Shown: positions 45,697 through 60,969 of the stretch, in pieces | Layout: each line of letters starts with the position of its first letter | Numbering within the stretch: the first letter of the stretch is position 1 | From: Actinoplanes nipponensis | GTDB lineage: Bacteria; Actinomycetota; Actinomycetes; Mycobacteriales; Micromonosporaceae | DNA: 64,000 nucleotides | Assembly (NCBI RefSeq): GCF_016862275.1 | Contig: NZ_BOMQ01000097.1 | Location: 1 to 64,000, forward strand | Direction: 5' to 3' | Position numbers and translations under genes: made by a program | Notes under the pieces: generated by a model | What the model was told of the DNA's origin: nothing | Database searches by the model: none | Seen by the model: the letters and a program-made list of their open reading frames with translations, nothing else

Positions 45697-46500
45697 TCAG
45701 TTGGTGGGGTAGAAGCCGGTGGGGAGCTGGCCGCCCGGTTCCGTCCGCCGGGCGCGCAGCCGCAGCCGCAGCAGCAGTCCCACCCCGAGGAAGACCAGGA
45801 TCCCGCCGACGATCAGGCCGGCGCCGAGCAGGCTGGGCGTGCCGCTGTCGCGGCCGGAGGCCGGCACCGCGGCGATGTCGGCGTCGGTGCTCGTGGGCTC
45901 CGGGGTGGCCCCCTGCTCCGCGGTCTCCTCCGGCTCGGCGGTGGATTCGGTCGGCGACGGGCTGGCCTCGGGGCTGGGCGAGCGGGTCTCGTCCCGGTCC
46001 TCCTGCTCGCCCTTGACCTCGCTGCGCGAGCTGGCCTCCTGCAGCAGGGTCCGGCCGGCGTTGAAGGCCTGCACCCGGAACGTGACGCTGCCCGGGTCGG
46101 CGTCGTCGTCGAAGCCGATCCGGTACCGGGCGGTGACCGTACGGCCCCGGCAGAGCTGGCCGGGGTCGAGCTGCACGTCGGTGATCCGCGCGGCGCCGGC
46201 CCCGGCGTTGCGGACCTGCACCGGGAAGTCGCCGTCCTCGTCCCGGGCGACCTCGACGTCGTCCAGGTCGGGGCCGTCCACCGAGAGCAGCAGCGACCAG
46301 CGCACCTTCAGACAGCGGTTCCGTTCGCTCGTGGCGACCACGGTGACCGTTCGCGCGCCGGCCCCCGCGGTGAAGGTCGCGGGCAGTTCGGTGATCTCCA
46401 CCCGGAAGCCGGGTTCCACGGCGGCTGCCCGGCCCGGCAGGGCCAGGGTCGCGGCGGCCAGGGCCAGAACCGCGGACAGCAGAGCAGCGCGATGCCGCAC
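45697..46500 (-). CDS. Exported, membrane-anchored protein of unknown function
   Basis: A 267-residue protein: a signal peptide (VRHRAALLSAVLALAAATLALPGRAAA), then a beta-rich domain to about residue 160 (FRVEITELPATFTAGAGARTVTVVATSERNRCLKVRW) with paired cysteines in RNRCLKVRW and GQLCRG. An acidic Ser/Thr/Pro/Glu stalk follows, then one transmembrane helix (LLGAGLIVGGILVFLGVGLLL) and a short basic tail. The ectodomain is anchored facing outward. GTG at 46500 has GAGGAG about nine bases before it. I recognise no named family. Confidence 0.8.
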   Translation of the reverse strand: MRHRAALLSAVLALAAATLALPGRAAAVEPGFRVEITELPATFTAGAGARTVTVVATSERNRCLKVRWSLLLSVDGPDLDDVEVARDEDGDFPVQVRNAGAGAARITDVQLDPGQLCRGRTVTARYRIGFDDDADPGSVTFRVQAFNAGRTLLQEASSRSEVKGEQEDRDETRSPSPEASPSPTESTAEPEETAEQGATPEPTSTDADIAAVPASGRDSGTPSLLGAGLIVGGILVFLGVGLLLRLRLRARRTEPGGQLPTGFYPTN

Positions 46501-46905
46501 AGCAATCAACTCCTCACTCAATGGCGTCAACGAGCACGCACGTGAGGTAGTTCGGCGCAGCCGGGCGAAAGGTTCACCGGGTGCCGGGGATTCCGCCGTC
46601 GATAACACTTTATTTTTGCCTCAGCCTGGCGTTTCCGCACGGTGTCCCGCCTGGTCAGTGCCCTTTCGGCGGAGATCGGTAGCATGCTCGCGCAAACTCG
46701 GCCGCAAAGAACTTCCCGAACGTTCATCCGAACCTCGGCCGTACACGTAGATGGGGGAGGGCAGGAGACCGGCTTTCACACACAGTGAGGAAGGGCAGCC
46801 CGCCGGTACACGGCCCGACAGTAACGAGCGCGGGGCATCCCCCACGGATGCCGGCGTCCCGACCGCCCAGGACGGACGCCACACCGCTGCGGAGAACGAG
46901 GAGTT

Positions 46906-48816
46906 ATGGCCCGGACGAAGATGAACCAGCGATCCGCCAGTCGTGTGGACGTCCCGATGAGCGCTACCGGCGGCCGAACACCGCCGTCGATGATCACCTT
47001 CGCGGTGCTCGGCGTCTCCATCCTCGCCGCCATCTGGGCCGCCGCGATGCTGACCCCGGCCGGTCAGATGGCCTACGTGTACGTGTTCGCGTACACCGAG
47101 TTCTACGTGGGCGTGCTGTCCCTCGTGTCGCTCTCGATCACGATCATGGTGGGACTGGTCGCCACCGACCGGCTGGTCCTGTCGATCCGCCAGCGGGTGC
47201 TGCTGCAGTCCGCGCACCGCACCACCGGGGTCATCGCGGTCGTCGCGCTCTTCTTCCACGTGTGGACGAAGGTGGCCGTGAGCAAGGTCGGCGTGATCGC
47301 CGTGTTCCTGCCCTTCACGGCGCCGTACAAGACGATGCTCATCGGCTTCGGCACGATCTCCGGCTACATCATGGTCATGGTCATGTGGACCGGCATCGCC
47401 CGCTCGCGGTTCATCGGCAAGGGCAAGCCGTGGATGTGGCGCGGCGTGCACGCCATCTCGTACCTGATGTGGCCGATCGCCCTGCTGCACGGCCTGGGCG
47501 CCGGCCGCGCGGCCAAGCCGTGGGTCATCGTGTCGTACATCGTCTGCATCCTGCTGGTGCTGGTCGGCCTAGCCGTGCGGCTGTCCGTGCGGCTGAACCG
47601 CCGCAAGGACTTCGCGTCGCAGGCCGGCACCGGCACCGGCAAGATCCAGCCGGTGGGCAAGCTGGTGCCGACCACCGCCCCCAGCGTCACCGGCCGCGGC
47701 CGGAGCCGCCGCGACGAGCCGGCCGCCGTCCCCGCCGCCCCCCAGCCCTGGGCGCCGGCGTCCCCGGTCACGGGCGCGCTGCCGGTCGTGGAGACCCCGG
47801 CCCGGCCGGTCAGCGCCAAGCCGGCCGCCGCGCCGATCAGCGCCCCGCCGGAGCCGCAGCGCCGGCCGCGCCGCGGCGTCGACGAGGAGGAGCGGGTGCG
47901 CCGCCGCCGCGACTTCGACGACGCGCCCACCCAGCGCTGGGAGTTCGAGGACGACGACCTGCCCGCGCCGCGGGCGCGCCGCTACGCCGACGAGGACGCC
48001 CCGGCGCCCCGCCAGCGCCGCGCCGCCGCCGGTGAGCGTTTCGACGAGCCGACCCGCGCGATGTCCCGCCGCGCCCTCGACGAGGGCCCGGCCGGCTACG
48101 CCGACGAGGACGAGCTGCCCGCGCCGCGCGCCCGCCGGCGTGCCGAGGACCCGTACGCGGCGGAGGCGCCGGCCCGCTCGCGCCGCTACGCCGGCACCGA
48201 GTTCGAGGAGGACGAGCCGCCCGTCGCCCCCGCCCGCTCGCGCCGCTACGCCGGCACCGAGTTCGAGGAGCCGGTGAGCCGCGGCCGCCGCTACGCCGAC
48301 GAGGACGACATGCCGGCCCCGCGCGGCCGGCGCGGCGTCGAGGACGAAGCGCCGCGCTCCCGGCGTTACGCCGACGACGAGGCGCCCGCGCCGCGCCAGC
48401 GCCGCTACGCCGAGGACGACGCCTACGAAGAGGTCGCCCCCCGGCGCCGGGCCGCCCGCTATCCGGACGACGAGCCGCCCCGCCCGACGCGCTCGTCCCG
48501 CTACGCCGACGAGACCGACACTGCGCCCCGGGCCCGGCGCGACCGGGGCGCCGACGTCGACAGCGCCGACTCGGGACGGCACAGCCGCAGTGAGTTCGTG
48601 GACCTGGCCGGCGACCCCCGGCTCGCGGTCGGGGAGGACCTGGAGCCCGACGAGACGCCGACGCTGGTCGACATGGCGTCGCGCCGCGCCCGCCGGGCCG
48701 GCATGCCGGAACCCGCCCGGGCGGCGAGCCGGGGGGCTCGCCGCGGCAGCAAGGGCAGAACGGACGAATCGGCTGACGACGTGTACTGGCGTCAGCTGCG
48801 AGGGGAAGCACAGTGA
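46906..48816 (+). CDS. Six-helix b-type cytochrome (ferric-reductase-like) with disordered RRYADE tail
   Basis: A 636-residue membrane protein. Residues about 28-230 form six helices. Histidine pairs His104/His118 in the third helix and His182/His195 in the fifth have the spacing of two-haem transmembrane electron carriers of the ferric reductase/NOX type. From about 236 to 636 the chain is disordered, rich in Arg, Asp, Glu and Pro, with roughly ten copies of an RRYADE-like motif separated by PAPR spacers. No flavin or NAD domain is present; the next genes could supply it. GAGGAG lies just before ATG 46906. It opens the redox-kinase operon. Confidence 0.85.
   Translation: MARTKMNQRSASRVDVPMSATGGRTPPSMITFAVLGVSILAAIWAAAMLTPAGQMAYVYVFAYTEFYVGVLSLVSLSITIMVGLVATDRLVLSIRQRVLLQSAHRTTGVIAVVALFFHVWTKVAVSKVGVIAVFLPFTAPYKTMLIGFGTISGYIMVMVMWTGIARSRFIGKGKPWMWRGVHAISYLMWPIALLHGLGAGRAAKPWVIVSYIVCILLVLVGLAVRLSVRLNRRKDFASQAGTGTGKIQPVGKLVPTTAPSVTGRGRSRRDEPAAVPAAPQPWAPASPVTGALPVVETPARPVSAKPAAAPISAPPEPQRRPRRGVDEEERVRRRRDFDDAPTQRWEFEDDDLPAPRARRYADEDAPAPRQRRAAAGERFDEPTRAMSRRALDEGPAGYADEDELPAPRARRRAEDPYAAEAPARSRRYAGTEFEEDEPPVAPARSRRYAGTEFEEPVSRGRRYADEDDMPAPRGRRGVEDEAPRSRRYADDEAPAPRQRRYAEDDAYEEVAPRRRAARYPDDEPPRPTRSSRYADETDTAPRARRDRGADVDSADSGRHSRSEFVDLAGDPRLAVGEDLEPDETPTLVDMASRRARRAGMPEPARAASRGARRGSKGRTDESADDVYWRQLRGEAQ
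48172..48270 (+). repeat. Direct repeat within the cytochrome tail
   Basis: A stretch of about 39 bases encoding ARSRRYAGTEFEE occurs at 48172-48210 and again at 48232-48270, offset by exactly 60 bases. It is the clearest sign that the tail grew by in-frame duplication. Confidence 0.85.
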
Positions 48817-48881
48817 CCGAGCGCTCCACCGATGACACCGCCGCGCGCGGCGCTGCCCCGCCGAGCGGGGTGACGCGGTGA
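48813..48881 (+). CDS. 22-residue ORF coupled on both sides
   Basis: GTG at 48813 overlaps the cytochrome stop (GTGA), with GAGGGGAAG five bases upstream, and its TGA at 48879-48881 overlaps the GTG of the NuoF-like gene. The encoded peptide (start MTERSTDDTAARG) is hydrophilic, without a helix or signal. It may be a real small protein, or a coupling device that carries ribosomes across the 62-base gap. No family is known to me. Confidence 0.5.
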   Translation: MTERSTDDTAARGAAPPSGVTR

Positions 48882-50350
48882 GCGCCGACCTGGTGCCCCC
48901 GGTCACCAGCATCGGGACGCCGCGCATCACCGCCGGTTTCGACGAGTACGGCCGGCTCGACCTGATCGCGCACCAGGAGGTCCACGGCGGCTTCGCGGCC
49001 CTGTCCAGCGGTGAGCTGATCGGTCTGGCCGACCGCATCGAGCTGCGCGGCCGGGGCGGCGCCGGGTTCCCGTTCGCCCGCAAGGTGCGCGCGGTGCTCG
49101 ACTCGTGCCAGCGCCAGGACCTGCCCCCGGTGATCGTGGTCAACGCCACCGAGGGCGAACCACCGTCCTGGAAGGACAAGGCGGTGCTGACCCGGGGTCC
49201 GCACCTGATCCTGGACGGCGCGGCGCTGGCGGCGGCCGCGCTCGACGCCGAGGAGATCGTGATCGGCATCGCCGACGACGGCATCGGCCAGCAGTCGCTG
49301 GCCGCGGCCCTGGCCGAGCGCCGGATGCCGGTGCCGACCCGGATCGTCACGGTCCCGCACCGCTTCATCTCCGGCGAGGGCGGCGCGCTGGTCCGCGGCA
49401 TCAATGGCGAGGCGCACATCCCGCCCGGCCGCAAGGTCCGCTCGAGCGACAACGGGGTCGGCGGGCTGCCCACGCTGCTCTCCAACGCCGAGACGTACTC
49501 GCAGCTGGCCATCGCCGCCCGGCTGGGCCCGTGGGAGTACAACGCGGTCGGCATCCCGGAGGAGCCGGGCACGGTCATGCTGACCGTCGGCGGCTCGGCC
49601 ACCGCGCCCGCCGTGGTCGAGGCGCCGACCGGCACCCCGCTGATGGACGTGCTGACCATGTGCGGCGCCGACATCGGCCCCGGCCTGCTGGTCGGCGGCT
49701 ACCACGGCAAGTGGATCACCGCCGAGGCGGCGAAGACGGTGACCATCTCCCGCAAGGGCTTCGCCAAGGTCGGCGGCACGCTGGGCGCGGGCATGCTCAT
49801 CCCGATCGGCTCGTCCACCTGCCCGCTGGGCGAGGTCGCCCAGGTCACCCAGTACCTCGCCGGGGAGTCGGCCGGCCAGTGCGGCCCGTGCCGGCTGGGC
49901 CTGCCCGACCTGGCCCGCGCGGTCACCCTGGTGGCGCTCGGCGGCAGCGCGCTGGAGAACGTGCGCCAGGCGGCCGGCGTGGTCAAGGGCCGCGGCGCGT
50001 GCAGCCACCCCGACGGCACGGCCCGCTTCGCCCTCTCCGCGCTCGAGGTCTTCGCCCGCGACGTCGAACTGCACGCCAACGGGGAGGGCTGCGGCAAGCA
50101 GGTGCGCGGCATCCTGCCCCTGCCGTACCACACCGATCAGGGCGCGCGGAAGCTCGCGGTGGACTGGTCGCGCTGCGACGGCCACGGCCTCTGCTCGGCG
50201 GTCGCCCCGGAGATCATCCGGCTGGACGCGAACGGCTTCCCGGCGTTCCCCCAGACGCCGCTGCCGCCGTGGCTGGAGAACGGCGCCCGCAAGGCGGTCA
50301 ACGTCTGCCCGGCGCTGGCCCTGCGCCTGACCGAAGCGGTCAAGAAGTGA
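48878..50350 (+). CDS. NuoF-like flavoprotein fused to a C-terminal ferredoxin
   Basis: A 490-residue cytosolic electron-transfer protein. The FMN/NADH domain shows RGRGGAGFP (57-65) and NATEGEPPSWKD, followed by an SLBB-like part. In the NuoF iron-sulphur block, ESAGQCGPC (330-338) has Ala332 where complex I has the first cysteine; Cys335, Cys338 and Cys375 remain. The last 65 residues form a ferredoxin with CDGHGLC (Cys433, Cys439) and Cys477 in VCP, a 3Fe-4S pattern. It likely accepts electrons from NAD(P)H or passes them to the cytochrome encoded upstream. GTG at 48878 overlaps the small ORF's stop. Confidence 0.85.
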   Translation: MSADLVPPVTSIGTPRITAGFDEYGRLDLIAHQEVHGGFAALSSGELIGLADRIELRGRGGAGFPFARKVRAVLDSCQRQDLPPVIVVNATEGEPPSWKDKAVLTRGPHLILDGAALAAAALDAEEIVIGIADDGIGQQSLAAALAERRMPVPTRIVTVPHRFISGEGGALVRGINGEAHIPPGRKVRSSDNGVGGLPTLLSNAETYSQLAIAARLGPWEYNAVGIPEEPGTVMLTVGGSATAPAVVEAPTGTPLMDVLTMCGADIGPGLLVGGYHGKWITAEAAKTVTISRKGFAKVGGTLGAGMLIPIGSSTCPLGEVAQVTQYLAGESAGQCGPCRLGLPDLARAVTLVALGGSALENVRQAAGVVKGRGACSHPDGTARFALSALEVFARDVELHANGEGCGKQVRGILPLPYHTDQGARKLAVDWSRCDGHGLCSAVAPEIIRLDANGFPAFPQTPLPPWLENGARKAVNVCPALALRLTEAVKK

Positions 50351-50907
50351 CCTCCGGACGCGGACTCGCCGGACGCGCCGCGGCCGGGCTGCTCACCGCT
50401 CTGCTCGCGGGCTGCGGGTCGTCGGCCGCGGTGTCGCCGGCCCCCGGCCCGGCTGCCGTCCCGGCCCCGGGCCCGTCCGCGGCGGCCGCGCCGGCTGTCG
50501 CGGTGCCGGCGTCGCTGGCGTTCACGGGCACGACCCTGGACGGCAAGACCTTCGACGCCGCCACCCTGGCCGGCAAGCCGACCATCCTGTGGTTCTGGGC
50601 GCCCTGGTGCGCGACCTGCGCGAGCGAGGCGATGTCGATCGCCGACCTGCAGGAGCAGTACGCCGGCCGGCTCAACATCCTCGGGATCGCGGGCCTGGGC
50701 ACCACCAGGGACATGCACGAGTTCGTCGCCGACCTGGAGGTCGGCACGGTGCCGCACCTGGACGACGCGCCGGGCCGGCTGTGGAAGAAGTTCGGCATCA
50801 CCCAGCAGAGCACGTACGTCATCCTCGACCCGGCCGGGCGCATCGTGACCACCGGCTACCTGGACGACCTGCAGCTGACCACCGAGGTCAAGTCGCTGGT
50901 GGCGTGA
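50347..50907 (+). CDS. TlpA-like thioredoxin-fold lipoprotein
   Basis: A 186-residue exported thiol-redox protein. The N-terminal LLTALLAGC is a lipobox, with Cys23 as the lipid attachment site. A Pro/Ala linker follows to about residue 55. The thioredoxin fold carries WAPWCATC with Cys88 and Cys91 as the active dithiol, then FGITQQSTYVILDPAGRI containing the usual beta-strand near the cis-turn. It would reduce or oxidise thiols on the outer face of the membrane. Its GTG overlaps the previous stop (GTGA). The CcdA gene next door is its probable electron source. Confidence 0.9.
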   Translation: MTSGRGLAGRAAAGLLTALLAGCGSSAAVSPAPGPAAVPAPGPSAAAAPAVAVPASLAFTGTTLDGKTFDAATLAGKPTILWFWAPWCATCASEAMSIADLQEQYAGRLNILGIAGLGTTRDMHEFVADLEVGTVPHLDDAPGRLWKKFGITQQSTYVILDPAGRIVTTGYLDDLQLTTEVKSLVA

Positions 50908-50910
50908 GCC

Positions 50911-51768
50911 GTGCCGGCCGCGTTGGTGCTCGCCCTGACCGCGGGGATGCTCGGGGCGGTCAATCCCTGCGGGTTCGCGCTCCTGCCCGCCTATCTGTCG
51001 GTGCTGGTCGCCGGGGATGAGTCCGCGTCCCCGGGGCCGCGCCGGGCCGTCGGCCGGGCGTTGCGGTGCACCGTCGCGCTGACCACGGGCTACGTCGTGG
51101 TGTTCGGCCTGTTCGGGCTGGTGCTGGCTCCGCTCACCGGGGTGCTGATGCCGCGGCTGCCGTGGCTCACGGTCGTGTTCGGGCTCGGCCTGGCCGGGCT
51201 GGGCGGCTGGCTGCTCGCCGGCCGGTCGGTGCCGACGCCGGGCCGGGGGCTGCGCGCGCCCCGGTTGACCGGCACGGCCGCGTCGATGGTGCTGTTCGGC
51301 ATGGCGTACGCGGTCGCGTCGCTCGGCTGCGCGATCGGGCCGTTCCTGGCGATCGTGGTCTCCAGCCTGCGCGCCGGCTCGATCATCGAGGGCGTGGCCC
51401 TGTTCGTCAGCTTCGCGGCCGGGATGGGGCTGGTGGTCGGCGTGACCGCCGTGGCCGTCGCGCTGCTGCGGGTGTCCGCGGTGGCGCGGCTGCGCCGGGC
51501 GGCCGCCTTCGTGCCCCGGATCGGCGGGGCGGTGCTGATCGTCGCCGGCGCGTACGTGGCCTACTACGGGTGGTACGAGCTGCGTCTGGTGCAGGACCGG
51601 CGGACCTCCGGGCAGGATCCGGTGGTCGAGCTGGCCGCGGCGGTCCAGCGCGGGTTGAGTGGTCTGGTCGGCCGGCTCGGGGCCGGCTGGTTCGGGCTGG
51701 TCCTGGCCGGGCTCGTCCTGACGGCGCTGCTGCTGTCCCGTCGTCGCCGTGCCTCAGTGGGGAGCTGA
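50911..51768 (+). CDS. CcdA/DsbD-type thiol electron transporter
   Basis: A 285-residue membrane protein carrying reducing equivalents from cytosolic thioredoxin to the outside. Its two active cysteines lie in the usual places: Cys20 in AVNPCGFALLPAY and Cys140 in ASLGCAIGPF. Six core helices plus one or two C-terminal helices are visible, making it somewhat longer than typical CcdA. GTG at 50911 follows the TlpA stop by three bases. With TlpA it forms a standard reducing pair, here joined to a cytochrome b and kinases instead of cytochrome c maturation genes. Confidence 0.9.
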   Translation: MPAALVLALTAGMLGAVNPCGFALLPAYLSVLVAGDESASPGPRRAVGRALRCTVALTTGYVVVFGLFGLVLAPLTGVLMPRLPWLTVVFGLGLAGLGGWLLAGRSVPTPGRGLRAPRLTGTAASMVLFGMAYAVASLGCAIGPFLAIVVSSLRAGSIIEGVALFVSFAAGMGLVVGVTAVAVALLRVSAVARLRRAAAFVPRIGGAVLIVAGAYVAYYGWYELRLVQDRRTSGQDPVVELAAAVQRGLSGLVGRLGAGWFGLVLAGLVLTALLLSRRRRASVGS

Positions 51769-51770
51769 CC

Positions 51771-53585
51771 GTGGACACCGCGTACCGCGTGACCCCGCTG
51801 CGCCGGGGCGATCCCGAGCAGCTGGGGGAGTACTGGCTCACCGGCCGGCTCGGCTCCGGCGGCATGGGCGTCGTCTACCTGGCCACCGACCGCGACGACA
51901 ACTACGTCGCCATCAAGCTGGTGCACGCGACGCTGGTCCACGATCCGGAGTTCCGCGGCCGCTTCCGCAGCGAGGTGGAACGGGCCCGCCAGGTGCCGTC
52001 CTTCTGCACCGCCGAGGTGCTGGACGCGGACCTGGACCACAACCCGCCGTACCTGGTGGTGGAGTACGTCGACGGGCCGAGCCTGGCCGAGGTGGTGGAG
52101 GAGCGCGGCCCGCTGCGGGCGGCGGCCCTGCACTCCCTGGCGGTCGGCGTGGCGACCGCGCTGACCGGCATCCACGGCGCGGGGGTGATCCACCGCGACC
52201 TGAAACCGGACAACGTGCTGCTGGCGCCGGGCAGCCCCAAGGTCATCGACTTCGGCATCGCGCGCGCCTTCGAGGCGACGAGCCAGCACACCCGCACCGA
52301 CCAGATGGTCGGCACGGTCGCCTACATGGCGCCCGAGCGCTTCTCCTCGGAACCGGGCACGCCGCTGACGGCGGCCGCGGACATCTTCGCCTGGGGCTGC
52401 GTGGTCGCCTACGCCGGCACCGGCCGGACCCCGTTCCACGGCGACTCGCCCCCGGCGACCGCGGCCCGGATCCTCACCCAGCCGCCGCACCTGGCCGGGC
52501 TGCCGGAGCCGTTGCGGGAGCTCGTCGCCCTCTCGCTGTCGAAGGACCCCGAGGAGCGGCCGTCCGCCCGCGAGCTGCTGGACATGCTGCTGGACGGCGA
52601 CCGTCCGGCGGCGCGGCAGCGCGCCACGGTGGTCAGCCGCGCGCCGGCCGCGGACCCCGACGAGTCCTACGACTCCCACCCGTTCGAGTCCGCCGATGCG
52701 TACGGCCCGCGCACCTACGGCGGCCACCCCGTCCCGTACGGTGCGCGCGGACGGCCCCGGGGTCACCGGCTGCTCGCTGTGCTGGCCGTGCTGCTGGTGC
52801 TGGCCGGCGTGGCGACGGTGGCGCTCGTGCTGAACGCGCACAGCCGTGCCGGCGACCCGCTGAGCACCAACGGAACCCAGCGCGGCGGCGCGGCGGCCGG
52901 CGTGGAGCAGTCCACGGCGCGGCCGGACGACGGGGCGCCCGCCCCGGACGACCCCCCTGCGACGACACCGACCGACTACGAGGACGACGAGCCCGGCGAC
53001 GACAGCGGCCGGTCGCCGGTGGAACCCACCGGTGGTGAGCCGATCATCCAGGACCCGCTGACCCGGCCCGGCCAGTGGCGGGACAGCGAGATCCGCGAGC
53101 AGGACGCGACCTGCTCCACCCTCGGCGTGATGCGGGTGGTCCGGGTCGATCGCGGCACCTACCAGTGTGTCGGCCCCGAGGAGCCGATCGCGGACGACTT
53201 CGGCGTGGCGGTGACCGTCGCGCTGCAGTCGGCGGGCAGCTGCGCCGCGATCTGGTTCCACTGGGACGCGCGGCGCGGCGGGCAGGTGCTCCGGGTCTGC
53301 CCGGGCGAGATGTCGGTGGCCGCCGACCGGCCGGACGACCGGCGGGTGTACGGGCGGATCCCCCTGCGGGAACGGATCGCTCCGCGCGGGTCGACCCGCA
53401 TCCACCTGGTCGTCCGGGAGGGCGAGGCGCAGGTGTTCCGGGGCGGCGACTTCGCGGGGTCGGTGCGGCTGCCCAGGGACGGGCCGGAGGAGGGCGCGGT
53501 GCTGCTGGGCCTCAGCGCCGAGGCCGTCGACGCCCGGCCGCCGTACGCGGTCACCTTCGCCAATGTGGACATTCGCTCCCTGTAG
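51771..53585 (+). CDS. Transmembrane Ser/Thr protein kinase with four-cysteine ectodomain
   Basis: A 604-residue Hanks-type kinase. The catalytic domain at residues about 18-275 has the glycine loop GRLGSGGMGVVY, Lys49, HRDLKPDN (Asp143) and DFG (Asp160). A linker, one transmembrane helix (about 333-354) and an acidic stalk lead to an outside beta-rich domain (about 425-604) of concanavalin-like pattern with cysteines at 448, 466, 491 and 510. GTG at 51771 comes two bases after ccdA, with GGGGAG six bases upstream, so it belongs to the redox operon. Target proteins are unknown. Confidence 0.92.
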   Translation: MDTAYRVTPLRRGDPEQLGEYWLTGRLGSGGMGVVYLATDRDDNYVAIKLVHATLVHDPEFRGRFRSEVERARQVPSFCTAEVLDADLDHNPPYLVVEYVDGPSLAEVVEERGPLRAAALHSLAVGVATALTGIHGAGVIHRDLKPDNVLLAPGSPKVIDFGIARAFEATSQHTRTDQMVGTVAYMAPERFSSEPGTPLTAAADIFAWGCVVAYAGTGRTPFHGDSPPATAARILTQPPHLAGLPEPLRELVALSLSKDPEERPSARELLDMLLDGDRPAARQRATVVSRAPAADPDESYDSHPFESADAYGPRTYGGHPVPYGARGRPRGHRLLAVLAVLLVLAGVATVALVLNAHSRAGDPLSTNGTQRGGAAAGVEQSTARPDDGAPAPDDPPATTPTDYEDDEPGDDSGRSPVEPTGGEPIIQDPLTRPGQWRDSEIREQDATCSTLGVMRVVRVDRGTYQCVGPEEPIADDFGVAVTVALQSAGSCAAIWFHWDARRGGQVLRVCPGEMSVAADRPDDRRVYGRIPLRERIAPRGSTRIHLVVREGEAQVFRGGDFAGSVRLPRDGPEEGAVLLGLSAEAVDARPPYAVTFANVDIRSL

Positions 53586-53798
53586 GGCGACGGATCACCC
53601 GCGGCTCCTGCGCGATGACGCAGCGCGTTCCGCCGCCGCGGGATGTCGGGTTTCGGCCGGGCCGGTCGGCCGCCGTCTGTGTCGGTTGAGCGGCAACCGC
53701 CGGACGGGTGTTCGCAGGCGGCGACCTGTCCCGATAGGGTGACCTTTCCTGTCGGGGGTGGGGCGGCGTCATGCTGCCGGGGCGTAGGAGTAAACGGC

Positions 53799-55562
53799 AT
53801 GTCGGACCAGCGGACCAGCCCGCTGCGCCCGCGTGACCCTCGCCGGCTCGGGCCGTACGAGCTGGTCGGCCGGCTCGGTGAGGGCGGCATGGGCACGGTC
53901 TACCTGGCCCGCAGCGCCGCCGGGGTGCTCGTGGCGGTCAAGATGGTCCGCGCCGACCTGGCGCCCGACGACGAGTTCCGGCGCCGGTTCCGCAGCGAGG
54001 TCAACCGGGTCCGCCAGGTGCCGCCCTTCTGCACCGCCGAGGTGCTCGACGCCGACCCCGACCACGAGCAGCCCTACCTGGTGGTCGAGTACGTCGACGG
54101 GCCCAGCCTGGCCGAGGTCGTCGAGGAACGCGGCCCGCTCACCGCGTCCAATCTGCACAGTGTGGCGATCGGCGTCGCCACCGCCCTGACCGCCATCCAC
54201 GGCGCCGGCGTCATCCACCGCGACCTCAAGCCGCGCAACGTCCTGCTCGCCCCGGGCAGCCCCAAGGTCATCGACTTCGGCATCGCCCGGGCGCTGGAGG
54301 CGACGAGCGCGCACACCCGCACCGACCAGATGCTCGGCACGGTGGCCTATATGGCGCCCGAGCGGTTCGGGCCCGACACCGACCTGCCGCTCACCCCGGC
54401 GGCCGACGTGTTCGCCTGGGGCGGCGTCGTCGCGTACGCGGGCACCGGCCGTACCCCGTTCAGCGCCGACTCGCCCCCCGCGACCGCCGCGCGGATCCTG
54501 ACCCAGGCCCCGGACCTGAGCGGGCTGAGCGGACCGCTGCGCGACCTCATCGGCCACGCCCTGGAGAAGGACCCGGCCAATCGGCCCAGCGCCCGCGAGC
54601 TGCTGGACCTGCTGGTCGACGGGCCGCAGCGGCCGGCCGCGTCCGGCGCCGCCCTCGACCACCAGCCCGGCCTGCGCTTCGCCGCTCAGGAGGCGCAGGC
54701 GGTCACCGGGGTCCAGCCCGTGGAGCAGTTCGCCGCGGCGGCCGCCGAACCGACCCTGGTCGGTTACTCGGAGAACGCGATCGTCACCCAGCCGGTGCCG
54801 ACCTCTGCGGCCGGGCCGGACACGCCGTTCACGCACGATCCCACGCCGCGCCGGCCGTGGGTGCTGCCCGCCGCGGTGAGCCTGCTGCTCATCGCGATGC
54901 TCGCGGTGGGCGGCGTGGTGGCGGCGCTGTGGCCGCGCGGCGGGGCGGACCCCGGCGCCACGACCGGCCCGGACGATCCGGGTGACAGCGGATCCGACGC
55001 CACCGTGCTGCTCGCCGACCCCCTGGGCCGGCAACGGCTCTGGATCGCCTCGTCGGACGACAAGGAGCGGGCCGGCTGCTCGTTCGACGGCGGCCTGGTG
55101 GTGCGGCGCGAGACCCGCGGCGTGTTCCGCTGCAAGGGCCCGGTGGACTACGAACCCCCGGACGTGCAGGCCGAGGTCAAGGTGCGGCTGCTGACCCCGA
55201 ACAGCTGCGCCTCGATCTGGATGCGCTTCGCGCAGTTCCGCGGCTATCAGGTGCGCGTCTGCGAGCGCAACGTCTACGTCGGCACGCACAAGTCGGACGT
55301 GACGGAGGTCTACAAGACCTTCCCGCTCGACGACCGCCCGATCGAGGTGGGCGCGCCCGCCACGCTCATCACCGTGAGCATCGTGGGCGAGACCCTCGAG
55401 GTGCTGCGCGACAGCGAGCTGCTGGGGTCCGTGCCGGTGCAGGACAAGGACATCAGCGGGGGCCGGGTGGTGCTCGGCATCTACACCGAGCGCAGCGCGC
55501 CGGTGAAGGGGCCCTACGCGGTCGCCTTCAACGACATCAAGCTCTGGCCGATCGAGCGCTGA
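53799..55562 (+). CDS. Second transmembrane Ser/Thr kinase, paralogue of its neighbour
   Basis: A 587-residue kinase with the same layout as the previous gene: catalytic domain about 20-272 (GRLGEGGMGTVY, Lys48, HRDLKPRN with Asp142, DFG at 159), linker, transmembrane helix about 354-377, and a homologous outside domain with cysteines at 427, 445, 470 and 488. The stretch RFRSEVNRVRQVPPFCTAEVLDAD is nearly the same in both, so they arose by tandem duplication. AGGAG precedes ATG 53799. The 213-base gap before it probably holds its own promoter, so it may be controlled separately. Confidence 0.92.
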   Translation: MSDQRTSPLRPRDPRRLGPYELVGRLGEGGMGTVYLARSAAGVLVAVKMVRADLAPDDEFRRRFRSEVNRVRQVPPFCTAEVLDADPDHEQPYLVVEYVDGPSLAEVVEERGPLTASNLHSVAIGVATALTAIHGAGVIHRDLKPRNVLLAPGSPKVIDFGIARALEATSAHTRTDQMLGTVAYMAPERFGPDTDLPLTPAADVFAWGGVVAYAGTGRTPFSADSPPATAARILTQAPDLSGLSGPLRDLIGHALEKDPANRPSARELLDLLVDGPQRPAASGAALDHQPGLRFAAQEAQAVTGVQPVEQFAAAAAEPTLVGYSENAIVTQPVPTSAAGPDTPFTHDPTPRRPWVLPAAVSLLLIAMLAVGGVVAALWPRGGADPGATTGPDDPGDSGSDATVLLADPLGRQRLWIASSDDKERAGCSFDGGLVVRRETRGVFRCKGPVDYEPPDVQAEVKVRLLTPNSCASIWMRFAQFRGYQVRVCERNVYVGTHKSDVTEVYKTFPLDDRPIEVGAPATLITVSIVGETLEVLRDSELLGSVPVQDKDISGGRVVLGIYTERSAPVKGPYAVAFNDIKLWPIER

Positions 55563-55614: not shown

Positions 55615-58083
<2,469 letters not shown>

Positions 58084-58180
58084 GCCGACGATTGTGACCG
58101 AGGGGCCCGGTGCTTGTCGCGCCGCCCCGCGAATACCGGGCGGACGATCACCCGGCGCGGGCGCGGGTAAGGTCGGCGGC

Positions 58181-59230
58181 ATGCACGCCGCGATGTGGTA
58201 CGCGCCCCGCGACATCCGCTGGGAAGAGCGTCCGGACCCCACGATCCAGCTGCCCACGGACGCGGTCGTGCGGGTGGTCGCCGCCTGCGTCTGCGGCTCC
58301 GACCTGTGGACGTACCGGGGCGCCCGGCCGCCGGCCGACCCGCACCCGATCGGCCACGAGTTCGTCGGCGTGGTCGAGCAGGCCGGCGCGGACGTGACCA
58401 CGCTGCGCGCCGGCGACTTCGTCATCTCGCCGTTCTCCATCAGCGACGGCAGCTGCCGGCCGTGCCGGCAGGGCGTCACCACCTCGTGCGAGCAGGTCCA
58501 GTGGTACGGCGGCACCGACCCCGCCGGCCGCACCCTCGACGGCGGTCAGGGCCGGTACGTGCGCGTGCCGCTGGCCGACGGCACCCTGGTCGCCACGCCC
58601 GCGCCGCCCGACACGGCGCAGATCCCGGCGCTGCTGGCCCTGTCCGACGTGCTCGGCACCGGCCACCACGCCGCCGTCTCCGCGGGCGTGGGCCCCGGCA
58701 GCACGGTCGCGGTGGTCGGCGACGGCGCGGTCGGCCTGTGCGCGGTGCTCGCCGCCGTCCGGCTCGGCGCGGAACGGGTCGTCGCGTTCTCCTCGCACGC
58801 CGACCGGCAGCGGGTGGCGACCGCCTTCGGCGCGGCCGACATCATCGCCGAGCGCGGCGACGACGGCGCCGCGGTGCTGCGCGACCGGCTCGGCGGCCGG
58901 GGCGCGGACGCCGTGCTCGAATGCGTCGGCAACCAGGAGTCGATGGCGCAGGCGCTGGCCTCGGTGCGGCCCGGCGGCCGGGTCGGCTACGTCGGCGTGC
59001 CCCTCGGCGGGGCGGAGCTGCCGATCAGGAAGATGTTCGCCGACAACATCGCGGTGGCCGGCGGCGTCGCCCCGGTCCGGCCGTACCTGCCCGAGCTGCT
59101 GACCGACGTGCTGGCCGGGAACCTCGACGCGAGCGCGGTCTTCGACCTGCAGCTGCCGATGGAGCAGGTCGCCGAGGCGTACGCCGCGATGGACGAGCGC
59201 CGCTCGATCAAGACGCTGCTGTGGCCCTGA
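58181..59230 (+). CDS. Zinc-dependent alcohol dehydrogenase (MDR family)
   Basis: A 349-residue medium-chain dehydrogenase. The catalytic zinc site is seen in CVCGSDLW and GHEFVGVVEQAG, and structural cysteines in SCRPCRQGVTTSCE. The NAD(P) motif VAVVGDGAVGLCAV is at residues about 180-193, with a conventional C-terminal part. It resembles glutathione-independent formaldehyde or threonine-type dehydrogenases, but the substrate is open. It is divergent from tex across 97 bases. Its last 23 bases overlap the end of the convergent LuxR gene. Confidence 0.92.
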   Translation: MHAAMWYAPRDIRWEERPDPTIQLPTDAVVRVVAACVCGSDLWTYRGARPPADPHPIGHEFVGVVEQAGADVTTLRAGDFVISPFSISDGSCRPCRQGVTTSCEQVQWYGGTDPAGRTLDGGQGRYVRVPLADGTLVATPAPPDTAQIPALLALSDVLGTGHHAAVSAGVGPGSTVAVVGDGAVGLCAVLAAVRLGAERVVAFSSHADRQRVATAFGAADIIAERGDDGAAVLRDRLGGRGADAVLECVGNQESMAQALASVRPGGRVGYVGVPLGGAELPIRKMFADNIAVAGGVAPVRPYLPELLTDVLAGNLDASAVFDLQLPMEQVAEAYAAMDERRSIKTLLWP

Positions 59231-60188
59231 GATCACGCTGCACCGCCCAGAGCGCGGCCTCCGTCCGGGAGGCCGCACCCGTCTTGCGCAGCAGGTTCGA
59301 CACGTGCACGGTGACCGTGCGCACCGAGATGCCCAGCGCCTGGGCGATCTGCTTGTTCGACATGCCCTCGGCCAGGCAGCCGATCACCTCCCGCTCCCGG
59401 GCGGTCAGCTCCGGCTGCTCCCGCAGATAGGACGGCAGCGGGGCGTCGGCCAGCGCCTCCGGCCCGCCGGCCGTGGCCAGCAGCTCGGTCAGCCGGTACG
59501 GGTTGCCGCCGGTGCGGCGCCACACCGCGTCCGCCACCTGCGGGGGCGGGCTGCTGGCGCCGTACACGTGATCGAGGATGCGGCCCACCTGCCCGGCGGT
59601 CAGCGCACCCAGGTGCTGGCGCACGGCGCCCGGGGCGCCCGACAGCCGGGCCAGGACGCGGGCGGTGAGCAGCTGCGAGACCGCCTCGTCGGGCGGCCGG
59701 CTGGTCACCAGCAGCAGCGCCGGCAGCTCCGCGCCGGCGAGCTCGCCGATCAGGTTCAGGCTGGCCGGGTCCAGCGCGTGCAGATCCTCGACCACGAGGA
59801 CGGCGGGACGGCCCCCCACCAACGTCCGCACGGTCGTGACGGCCAGCCGCAGCAGCGCGTCCGGCGTGTACCGCTCCCGGGGGACATCGGGGTCCTGGGC
59901 CAGCCAGGCCAGCGCGTCGGGCGGCACGGGCAGGGCCGGCCGGGAACCCCACCCGGCCAGCACCGCGGCGAGCCAGTCGTAGGGCGCCGGGGAATGCAGC
60001 CGCGCGGAGCCGGAGAGCACCACCTGTGGCGTCGTGAGCTGCAGCGCCGCGGCGGCGAGCGTGGTCTTGCCGGTGCCGGGCGGCCCGGTGATCACGGCGG
60101 GCACGCACCGTCCGCCGGCGCCCACGCGCTCCCAGGCGCGCCGGAGCTCGTCCAACGCGTCCGTTCGTCCCACCATCGGTACCGGCAT
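59208..60188 (-). CDS. Compact AAA-LuxR transcriptional regulator
   Basis: A regulator of about 326 residues. An AAA-type domain at the N-terminus has Walker A GPPGTGKTTLA (residues about 36-46) and Walker B-like AVLVVEDLHALDP. A LuxR helix-turn-helix ends it (ELTAREREVIGCLAEGMSNKQIAQALGISVRTVTVHVSNLLRKTGAASR). The large helical middle region of LAL proteins is missing, making it much shorter than the usual 900 residues. Several starts are possible (GTGs at 60194 and 60191, ATGs at 60188 and 60176); 60188 is used. ACTACGT repeats stand just upstream. Confidence 0.87.
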   Translation of the reverse strand: MPVPMVGRTDALDELRRAWERVGAGGRCVPAVITGPPGTGKTTLAAAALQLTTPQVVLSGSARLHSPAPYDWLAAVLAGWGSRPALPVPPDALAWLAQDPDVPRERYTPDALLRLAVTTVRTLVGGRPAVLVVEDLHALDPASLNLIGELAGAELPALLLVTSRPPDEAVSQLLTARVLARLSGAPGAVRQHLGALTAGQVGRILDHVYGASSPPPQVADAVWRRTGGNPYRLTELLATAGGPEALADAPLPSYLREQPELTAREREVIGCLAEGMSNKQIAQALGISVRTVTVHVSNLLRKTGAASRTEAALWAVQRDLRATAAS

Positions 60189-60199
60189 CACCACCCAAC

Positions 60200-60220
60200 A
60201 CTACGTACTACGTACTACAG
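60200..60220. promoter_or_regulatory. Three 7-bp direct repeats in a divergent promoter gap
   Basis: ACTACGT (60200-60206), ACTACGT (60207-60213) and ACTACAG (60214-60220) lie head to tail between the AAA-LuxR gene and the PP2C gene. The stretch is AT-richer than its surroundings and contains overlapping TACGTA palindromes. It could be a binding array for the LuxR protein, by position only. Confidence 0.4.
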
Positions 60221-60252
60221 ACACCGCCGCAGCCCTTTGGCAGTCTTGTGGC

Positions 60253-60969
60253 ATGAGTGTCGTGCTGCGTGCGGTCGCCGCCTCCGATCAGGGCCTGGTC
60301 CGGTCGAACAACGAGGACGCGGTCTTCGTCGGCGAGCGGTTGCTGGTCGTGGCGGACGGCATGGGCGGCCTGCCCGCCGGGGAACTGGCCAGCGACATCC
60401 TGGTCCGCGCGCTCGCCGACGTGGACGCCAAGCCGGACACCGGCGAGCCGCTGCAGGACCTCATCGCGGCGCTGGAGACGGCGAACGAGCGCATCGAGGC
60501 GGCGGTGGCGGACGACGACGCCCGCGACGGCATGGGCACGACGGTGACGACGCTCATGCTCTCGGGCGACCGGGTGGCCGCCCTGAACGTGGGCGACTCC
60601 CGCTGCTACCTGATCCGCGACGGCGCGCTGACCCAGATCACCCGCGACGACACGTACGTGCAGGCGCTGGTGGACCAGGGGGTGCTGACCCCGGACGACG
60701 CGCGCCGGCACCCGCAGCGGGCGCTGGTGACCCAGGCGGTGCAGGGCGGGCCGTTCCGGCCGGCGGGGCGGATGGTGCCGGTCCGGCCGGGGGACAGGTT
60801 CCTGCTGTGCAGCGACGGGCTGAGCGACTACGTCGAGGACGAGGTGATCGCGACGACGCTGCGGTCGTACCCGGACCGGCAGGTGTGCGCGGCGGAGCTG
60901 ATCGCGCGGACGCTGGAGGCGGGCGCGCCGGACAACGTCACGGTGATCGTCGCGGACGTGGAGGAGTAG
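60253..60969 (+). CDS. PP2C-family Ser/Thr phosphatase
   Basis: A 238-residue PPM phosphatase that removes phosphate from Ser/Thr, counterpart to Hanks kinases. Metal-binding motifs in order are SDQGLVRSNNEDAVF (Asp12, Glu21), LLVVADGMGGLPAGE, GMGTTVTTLML, ALNVGDSRCYLI, FLLCSDGLSDYV, and APDNVTVIVADVEE at the end. It is soluble, with no membrane helix. It is the only phosphatase in the window and lies 4.7 kb after the kinase pair, so it could oppose them. Its last 32 bases overlap the convergent S26-like gene. Confidence 0.93.
   Translation: MSVVLRAVAASDQGLVRSNNEDAVFVGERLLVVADGMGGLPAGELASDILVRALADVDAKPDTGEPLQDLIAALETANERIEAAVADDDARDGMGTTVTTLMLSGDRVAALNVGDSRCYLIRDGALTQITRDDTYVQALVDQGVLTPDDARRHPQRALVTQAVQGGPFRPAGRMVPVRPGDRFLLCSDGLSDYVEDEVIATTLRSYPDRQVCAAELIARTLEAGAPDNVTVIVADVEE

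Follow-up and report, generated by a model that had tools for sequence, protein, structure and literature searches.

A cytochrome b–NuoF gene pair with a thioredoxin-fold lipoprotein neighbor in Actinoplanes nipponensis, a putative transmembrane electron-transfer module with lineage-specific exported partners

The stretch of DNA analyzed here (hereafter, the window) consists of positions 1 to 64,000 of contig 97 (NZ_BOMQ01000097.1) in the 8.95 Mb genome of Actinoplanes nipponensis (G000). It contains a run of closely spaced genes that a first-pass annotation, made from the sequence alone, described as a membrane redox relay joined to transmembrane Ser/Thr kinases. The coordinates bear out the five forward-strand genes of this run in the order claimed: a putative dihaem cytochrome b of the ferric reductase/NADPH oxidase (NOX) type (46906..48816), so assigned from its relatives, His pattern and fold; a NuoF-like flavin mononucleotide (FMN)/iron-sulfur (Fe-S) protein with a fused C-terminal single-cluster ferredoxin (48878..50350); a thioredoxin-fold (TlpA-fold) lipoprotein of the DsbF/MPT53 type (50347..50907), with the lipobox LLAGC and the active site WAPWCATC; a CcdA-like membrane protein (50911..51768), with Cys20 in the motif NPCGF and Cys140 in GCAIGPF; and K1, a transmembrane Ser/Thr kinase (51771..53585). 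The NuoF and TlpA genes overlap by 4 nucleotides (nt), and gaps of 3 nt and 2 nt separate TlpA from CcdA and CcdA from K1, respectively. The gap between the cytochrome and NuoF genes measures 61 nt, not 62 nt as originally stated, but is indeed bridged by a 22-codon open reading frame (ORF; 48813..48881, forward strand), the GTG start of which overlaps the cytochrome stop codon and the stop of which overlaps the NuoF start. Consensus scans of the gene run detected no sigma-70-like promoter and are uninformative on separate promoters; the single terminator-like match lies within the cytochrome gene, compared with a mean of 1.2 in shuffled sequences.

Conservation of the run was assessed in overlapping collections of loci. 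Set A includes 80 loci with a NuoF-like protein, from 79 genomes (20 loci from the genus, 2 from a sister genus, 16 from family f31, 22 from family f33 and 20 others), 22 of these within Micromonosporaceae and 58 outside; the genus set consists of 36 genomes; and set B comprises 81 rows, that is, the window and 80 further loci, with 23 of the 35 genus loci recurring in it. By the NuoF gene, the nearest relative with a name is Amorphoplanes auranticolor, a member of the Actinoplanes group of Micromonosporaceae. In 75 of the 80 loci of set A, a cytochrome match precedes NuoF by at most 3 kb in the same orientation (genus 20/20, sister genus 2/2, f31 15/16, f33 21/22, others 17/20; the exceptions are L078, L091, L110, L122 and L129), and the pairing recurs in 77 of 80 loci of set B, the other 3 being cut by contig ends. 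As to the concern that the gene order might be unique to this genome, the order cytochrome-NuoF-TlpA-CcdA was found in relatives, with K1 restricted to 10 of the 36 genus genomes.

The junction within the pair is conserved as well. Among 86 rows, the cytochrome stop and the NuoF start overlap by exactly 4 nt in 67, a bridging ORF intervenes in 9, 5 are otherwise different (L226, gap of 51 nt without a bridge; L195, gap of 6; L164, gap of 0; L202 and L219, odd overlaps), and 5 could not be scored. The bridging ORFs (the window, L155, L156, L051, L158, L160, L161, L185 and L197) are 11–26 codons long and overlap both flanking genes by 4 nt; in these rows, which have a GTGA stop, the bridged gaps, 28–73 nt, are 61, 61, 61, 61, 73, 28, 28, 49 and 52 nt, several of these rows being close kin. 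The differences between gap lengths in multiples of 3 follow from a bridge with both overlaps and constitute no separate evidence; the chance of such a bridge is, by a rough estimate, about 1 in 8 per independent case. We read the overlaps and bridges as probable signs of selection for translational coupling. The 22-residue ORF itself was rejected as a gene because the peptide is not conserved.

The window cytochrome has no Pfam or NCBIfam match of its own, and the ferric reductase domain PF01794 (Ferric_reduct) is matched by 11 of 21 aligned homologues (best E 2.8e-8). Four His residues (104, 118, 182 and 195) are invariant in both alignments of the family (21/21 and 28/28). The structural model (predicted local distance difference test, pLDDT, 85) has six helices (29–48, 51–86, 94–124, 143–164, 175–198 and 205–241), which would be positioned in the membrane, with His104 and His118 on helix 3 and His182 and His195 on helix 5, a pattern that points to two bis-His b-type haem sites. 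The membrane part is followed by a tail of approximately 400 residues (about 47610–48816) that is charged, of low complexity, rich in Arg, Asp, Glu and Pro, with RRYADE-type repeats, and without a Pfam match.

The NuoF-like protein matches PF01512, PF10589 and PF13459, with a weak SLBB match, and retains the FMN-binding GRGG motif and three Fe-S Cys. It scores 145 against the NCBIfam NuoF model, for which the cut-off is 559. The ferredoxin (PF13459), fused at the C-terminus in the window, appears as a separate downstream match in most distant loci (17/20). Within the genus, the NuoF-like protein is 90–100% identical, compared with 64–93% for the membrane part of the cytochrome. With cut-offs that differ between the taxonomic levels, matches were found in 59 of 60 near relatives (1e-20, true NuoF included), 141 of 394 genomes of the class (1e-45) and 16 of 296 of the phylum (1e-60). 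Thus far, the sequences support the transmembrane relay proposed in the first-pass annotation, consisting of an input protein of the FMN/Fe-S type and a pair of b-type haem sites.

The other two redox genes of the run have a narrower distribution. By tblastn in set A, TlpA lies downstream of NuoF in 17 of the 22 Micromonosporaceae loci, and neither TlpA nor CcdA was detected near NuoF in any of the 58 loci outside this family. The lipoprotein, a single thioredoxin domain with a CxxC motif, matches the solved structures of DsbF (3IOS, E 1.9e-29) and MPT53/DsbE (1LU4, E 5e-19). The window CcdA has no Pfam or NCBIfam match, and the PF02683 score of a homologue from Micromonosporaceae (L071), 23.9 bits, stays below the cut-off of 27.1; both membrane Cys of the thiol relay are present, and we take the contexts of Cys20 and Cys140 to be typical of the CcdA relay. 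The thiol arm thus does lie in the same run, as originally claimed, but the export of thiols that was ascribed to it is uncertain in direction given that, according to PMC3853704, both relatives, DsbF and DsbE, act as oxidants in vitro.

Within the genus set, TlpA is present in 31 genomes and CcdA in 19, with 12 genomes having TlpA without CcdA; in set B, both genes are present in 48 rows and TlpA alone in 19, both are absent from 13, and the remaining row has a broken TlpA. Before counting, CcdA was set by hand to absent in L158 (a 111-residue remnant), TlpA and CcdA to absent in L198 (a chimeric remnant of the two) and TlpA to unknown in L179 (a broken copy, cut before the CxxC); these three loci represent decay intermediates. 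A quick NuoF tree shows 6 clades that retained TlpA after losing CcdA, and all 19 TlpA-only rows have an intact WAPWCATC active site. The median ratio of nonsynonymous to synonymous polymorphism (pN/pS) of TlpA is 0.48 with CcdA and 0.57 without (maxima 0.99 and 0.91), values too saturated to weigh much. A genome-wide search at E 1e-10 detected no CcdA of this subfamily in 8 of the 12 genus genomes with TlpA only and found one elsewhere in the other 4; CcdA of the cytochrome c type is too distant for a reliable count at this cut-off and remains an alternative partner of TlpA in all 12. A role of the TlpA-CcdA pair of the run in cytochrome c maturation was judged unlikely: another ResA-like protein and CcdA are encoded on contig C63 and, by their motifs, presumably serve cytochrome c, although no search for maturation genes was made.

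Outside Micromonosporaceae, the cytochrome-NuoF pair is accompanied by other exported or flavin-related genes. Of the 20 distant loci, 12 have a protein of one and the same cluster upstream of the pair, and the single tested representative of this cluster is ApbE (PF02424, E 6e-40); the presence of ApbE genes near the pair implies a flavinylated partner, and an ApbE-flavinylated protein is probably the outer partner in this set of distant relatives. In five loci of family f33 (L087, L093, L094, L105 and L106), NuoF is directly followed by a Cys-bearing Lipoprotein_15 (PF03640) protein, possibly another exported partner, and in family f31 (L072–L085) a DUF4142 protein (9 loci) and a DUF1996 protein (8 loci) occur on either side of the pair; for each of these three families, one representative was tested. 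In the window genome, ApbE and FMN_bind matches (E 0.001) were found only on contigs C17 and C88, none in the operon. Those on C88 adjoin a gene that, by eye, resembles a ferric reductase fused to an oxidoreductase region; on C17, the surroundings of the ApbE genes were examined by tblastn with the operon proteins.

We consider it most plausible, at a rough probability of 0.6, that the core of the locus is a two-gene transmembrane electron-transfer module with a lineage-specific exported partner and that the kinases are separate. FMN in the NuoF-like protein would accept electrons from a donor in the cytosol; the Fe-S cluster and the ferredoxin domain of the same protein would relay them to the membrane cytochrome, the two bis-His haems of which would carry them to the outer face, with the overlapping stop and start codons keeping the production of the two proteins coupled. 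The outer acceptor would be the lineage-specific exported partner, in Micromonosporaceae the DsbF-like lipoprotein, which CcdA could also serve. K1 and K2, the sister kinase encoded downstream, would be separate kinases that came to adjoin, and partly to enter, the operon in the Actinoplanes group. Under a more specific version of this scheme, the dihaem cytochrome, fed by NuoF-ferredoxin, would exchange electrons directly with the TlpA lipoprotein, a haem-to-dithiol route across the membrane for which CcdA would not be required. Such a route is allowed by the six losses of CcdA, the intact CxxC and the eight genomes without a subfamily CcdA; we regard it as doubtful.

Several observations weigh against the two-gene module with an exported partner. 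The structure matches of the cytochrome model favor its assignment, but their scores are weak. In a Foldseek search, the top three rows were NADPH oxidases (E 0.04–0.06, template modeling score 0.32–0.44 by query length); in a second structure search, rows 1–27 had the titles of b-type haem proteins or of complexes containing one, the best solved folds being SpNOX and NOX5 (SpNOX: Z 13.2, 3.3 Å, 148 residues), at a level close to that below which (Z under about 13) the tool warns of arrangements common in helical bundles. Because of these scores, the assignment of the cytochrome is carried by the His pattern and PF01794. In the NuoF-like protein, with Cys315, Cys335, Cys338, Cys375 and Cys405 considered as cluster Cys, the first canonical cluster Cys is Ala or Ser in 80/80 sequences, and an extra Cys405 is present in 80/80, which together suggest a moved Fe-S ligand. 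The aromatic residue at the position of complex I Phe78 is missing in 80/80, and Glu185 is kept in 10/80; we take these positions to line the NADH (reduced nicotinamide adenine dinucleotide) site of complex I, so that a donor other than NADH is possible. TlpA is missing from 5 of the 36 genus genomes and from 13 of the 81 rows of set B, in addition to the broken copy, and the module therefore does without it in some loci. The same genome encodes a second DsbF-like TlpA-CcdA pair (L247, contig C11; identity over the aligned parts about 49% for TlpA and about 53–54% for CcdA), with no cytochrome or NuoF match within 8 kb by tblastn, and this pair can thus work alone. Finally, the loci were collected via NuoF, which makes loss of the whole module invisible.

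This second pair gives some weight to the alternative that survives best, namely, that TlpA and CcdA form an unrelated disulfide-handling unit, an oxidase or isomerase for exported proteins, that merely shares a promoter with the cytochrome-NuoF pair; possible clients are the Cys-bearing product of a divergent gene upstream of the run (see below) or the outer domains of the kinases. Consistent with this possibility, among 10 family f8 genomes, 7 have a TlpA-CcdA pair (1.5 kb read on each side), PMC3853704 reports DsbF and DsbE as oxidants in vitro, and TlpA was repeatedly lost while the cytochrome-NuoF pair stayed. The position of TlpA argues against it: the gene is intact directly behind NuoF in 67 of the 81 Micromonosporaceae rows, including those that have lost CcdA. 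We consider an unrelated unit less probable than an exported partner, although it remains a serious competitor.

Alternatively, the module could be a quinone- or oxygen-linked enzyme, such as a NOX-like producer of superoxide or a quinol oxidase, with no dedicated protein acceptor. The closest solved folds, those of NADPH oxidases, agree with such an activity, but the exported lineage-specific neighbors (the DsbF-like lipoprotein, Lipoprotein_15, DUF1996/DUF4142 and the ApbE genes) speak for a protein acceptor, with the caveat that a neighborhood is no proof of partnership; on balance, we deem this explanation unlikely.

The kinases have a different history from that of the redox genes. K1 contains the motifs VAIK, HRDLKPDN and DFG, and its outer domain is encoded at 53040–53585. 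The outer-domain model (pLDDT 95) is a jelly-roll that aligns with the CBM66 structure 4azz (Z 20.0, root mean square deviation 2.1 Å, 153 residues), the next structural matches being other lectin-like folds. In the window genome, this domain was found in K1 and K2 only (E 0.01). Its four Cys are invariant in 45/45 sequences, also where the genome lacks TlpA or CcdA, and are most simply explained as structural disulfides; redox sensing by these Cys was rejected, given their invariance regardless of TlpA and CcdA. K1 is present in 10 of the 36 genus genomes and in 12 rows of set B (the two sets overlap; by hand, K1 was set to present in L157, where it is cut by the contig end, and to absent in L187, where the kinase is K2), and it starts 2 nt past CcdA in 8 of these 12 rows. 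It lies directly behind NuoF, without TlpA or CcdA, in L056 and L057 (the latter from the same genome as the TFC3 locus L165), and persists next to decayed TlpA and CcdA in L053 (the same genome as L158); TlpA and CcdA likewise persist without K1. In L197 (Spirilliplanes), three kinases of the K1/K2 family follow CcdA in a row.

K2 (53799..55562, forward strand), with an outer domain of the same family at 55002–55562, does follow K1 as stated in the first-pass annotation, but its likeliest start is the ATG at 53799 rather than 53643, which leaves a gap of 213 nt, so that a shared transcript is not required. It is syntenic mostly with the genes for a Tex-type RNA-binding protein (55615..58533, reverse strand) and a PP2C-type phosphatase (60034..60969, forward strand, PF13672), even where this block is reversed and farther off (L059, L133, L141, L144 and more in set B); L185 has Tex and PP2C without K2. 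The phosphatase, originally placed at 60253 and suggested to reverse the kinase signal, is confirmed as a gene. The proposed linkage of the kinases to the relay accordingly holds for K1, which is tightly placed yet patchy, but not for K2.

That the kinases sense an outer redox state determined by the haem arm and the CcdA-TlpA arm, as first proposed, appears very improbable: the tight placement of K1 behind CcdA, the four invariant outer-domain Cys and the finding that, in independent pairs of rows differing in CcdA, K1 changes in the same direction in 1–3 of 10 and never in the opposite one (too few for a test, and counted before the changes to L157, L187, L158 and L179) are outweighed by the persistence of K1 and the redox genes without each other, the invariance of the Cys in genomes without TlpA or CcdA and the CBM66-like outer fold. 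The lectin-like domain marks K1 and K2 as probable glycan-sensing kinases, although a fold in common does not by itself establish a function. The kinase link that remains would possibly be cytosolic, through the cytochrome tail, where the motif PT[LMV][VMI][DE] (PTLVD-type) is kept in 67 of 77 rows, with acidic residues preceding it in most of those shown, and a YWxxLRGEA-type end in 60 of 77. A PTLVD-type motif after acidic residues suits actinobacterial kinases. The motif also occurs in Micromonospora, where no K1 or K2 match was found within the stretches examined around the loci, so K1 and K2 are not specifically indicated.

Upstream of the run, a divergent gene (45697..46608, reverse strand) encodes a protein that is predicted to be secreted and anchored in the membrane, with a C-terminal hydrophobic helix. 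It is present in 35 of the 36 genus genomes, the remaining one being cut by a contig end, and its product has no Pfam match and contains two Cys that are invariant in 16/16 aligned sequences. This protein is a candidate outer partner of the cytochrome.

These findings suggest that a single haem/flavin pair for electron export is used repeatedly in actinomycetes, in combination with exported partners that are interchangeable. The genomes with and without TlpA, and with and without CcdA, form a natural series for asking whether haem feeds disulfide chemistry outside the membrane. A redox-sensing role of the kinases is unsupported; the evidence points to glycan sensing instead.

Each component can be compared with known systems. 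Like the NADPH oxidases and ferric reductases of the FRD superfamily, the cytochrome has six predicted helices and, on helices 3 and 5, two bis-His sites; unlike these, it lacks a fused flavin adenine dinucleotide (FAD)/NAD(P)H domain, in place of which there are a NuoF-like protein, encoded separately, and a charged tail of low complexity. The NuoF-like protein shares with NuoF of complex I and with RnfC the GRGG motif, the FMN and 4Fe-4S domains and the weak SLBB match, but differs in the first cluster Cys (0/80), the new Cys405, the altered NADH-site residues and the single-cluster ferredoxin, fused or neighboring. As with mycobacterial DsbE and DsbF, for which Rv2877c or Rv2874 are the predicted partners according to PMC3853704, a thioredoxin-fold protein adjoins a CcdA relative, an arrangement also seen in the family f8 genomes; the window protein differs in having a lipobox and in being embedded in a haem/flavin gene run. 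K1 and K2 resemble receptor kinases of the AfsK/PknB type in combining a kinase domain, one predicted transmembrane helix and an outer domain; the AfsK and PknB models match them far below the cut-offs, and their outer domain is CBM66-like. A search of literature listings found nothing on this operon. The pairing of a PF01794-type cytochrome with a NuoF-like protein as the proposed cytosolic electron input is already described in PMC8238504, for 31 clusters among the MsrQ-like ones, which overall occur mostly in Actinobacteria and are defined by ApbE/FMN-binding neighbors; the main text of that paper makes no use of the word "kinase". The ApbE-bearing distant loci match the arrangement reported there, whereas the window operon has no ApbE or FMN-binding gene and encodes a DsbF-like lipoprotein and CcdA instead. 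What is new here is that, next to a cytochrome-NuoF pair of a known kind, a thiol lipoprotein occupies the place of the flavinylated partner.

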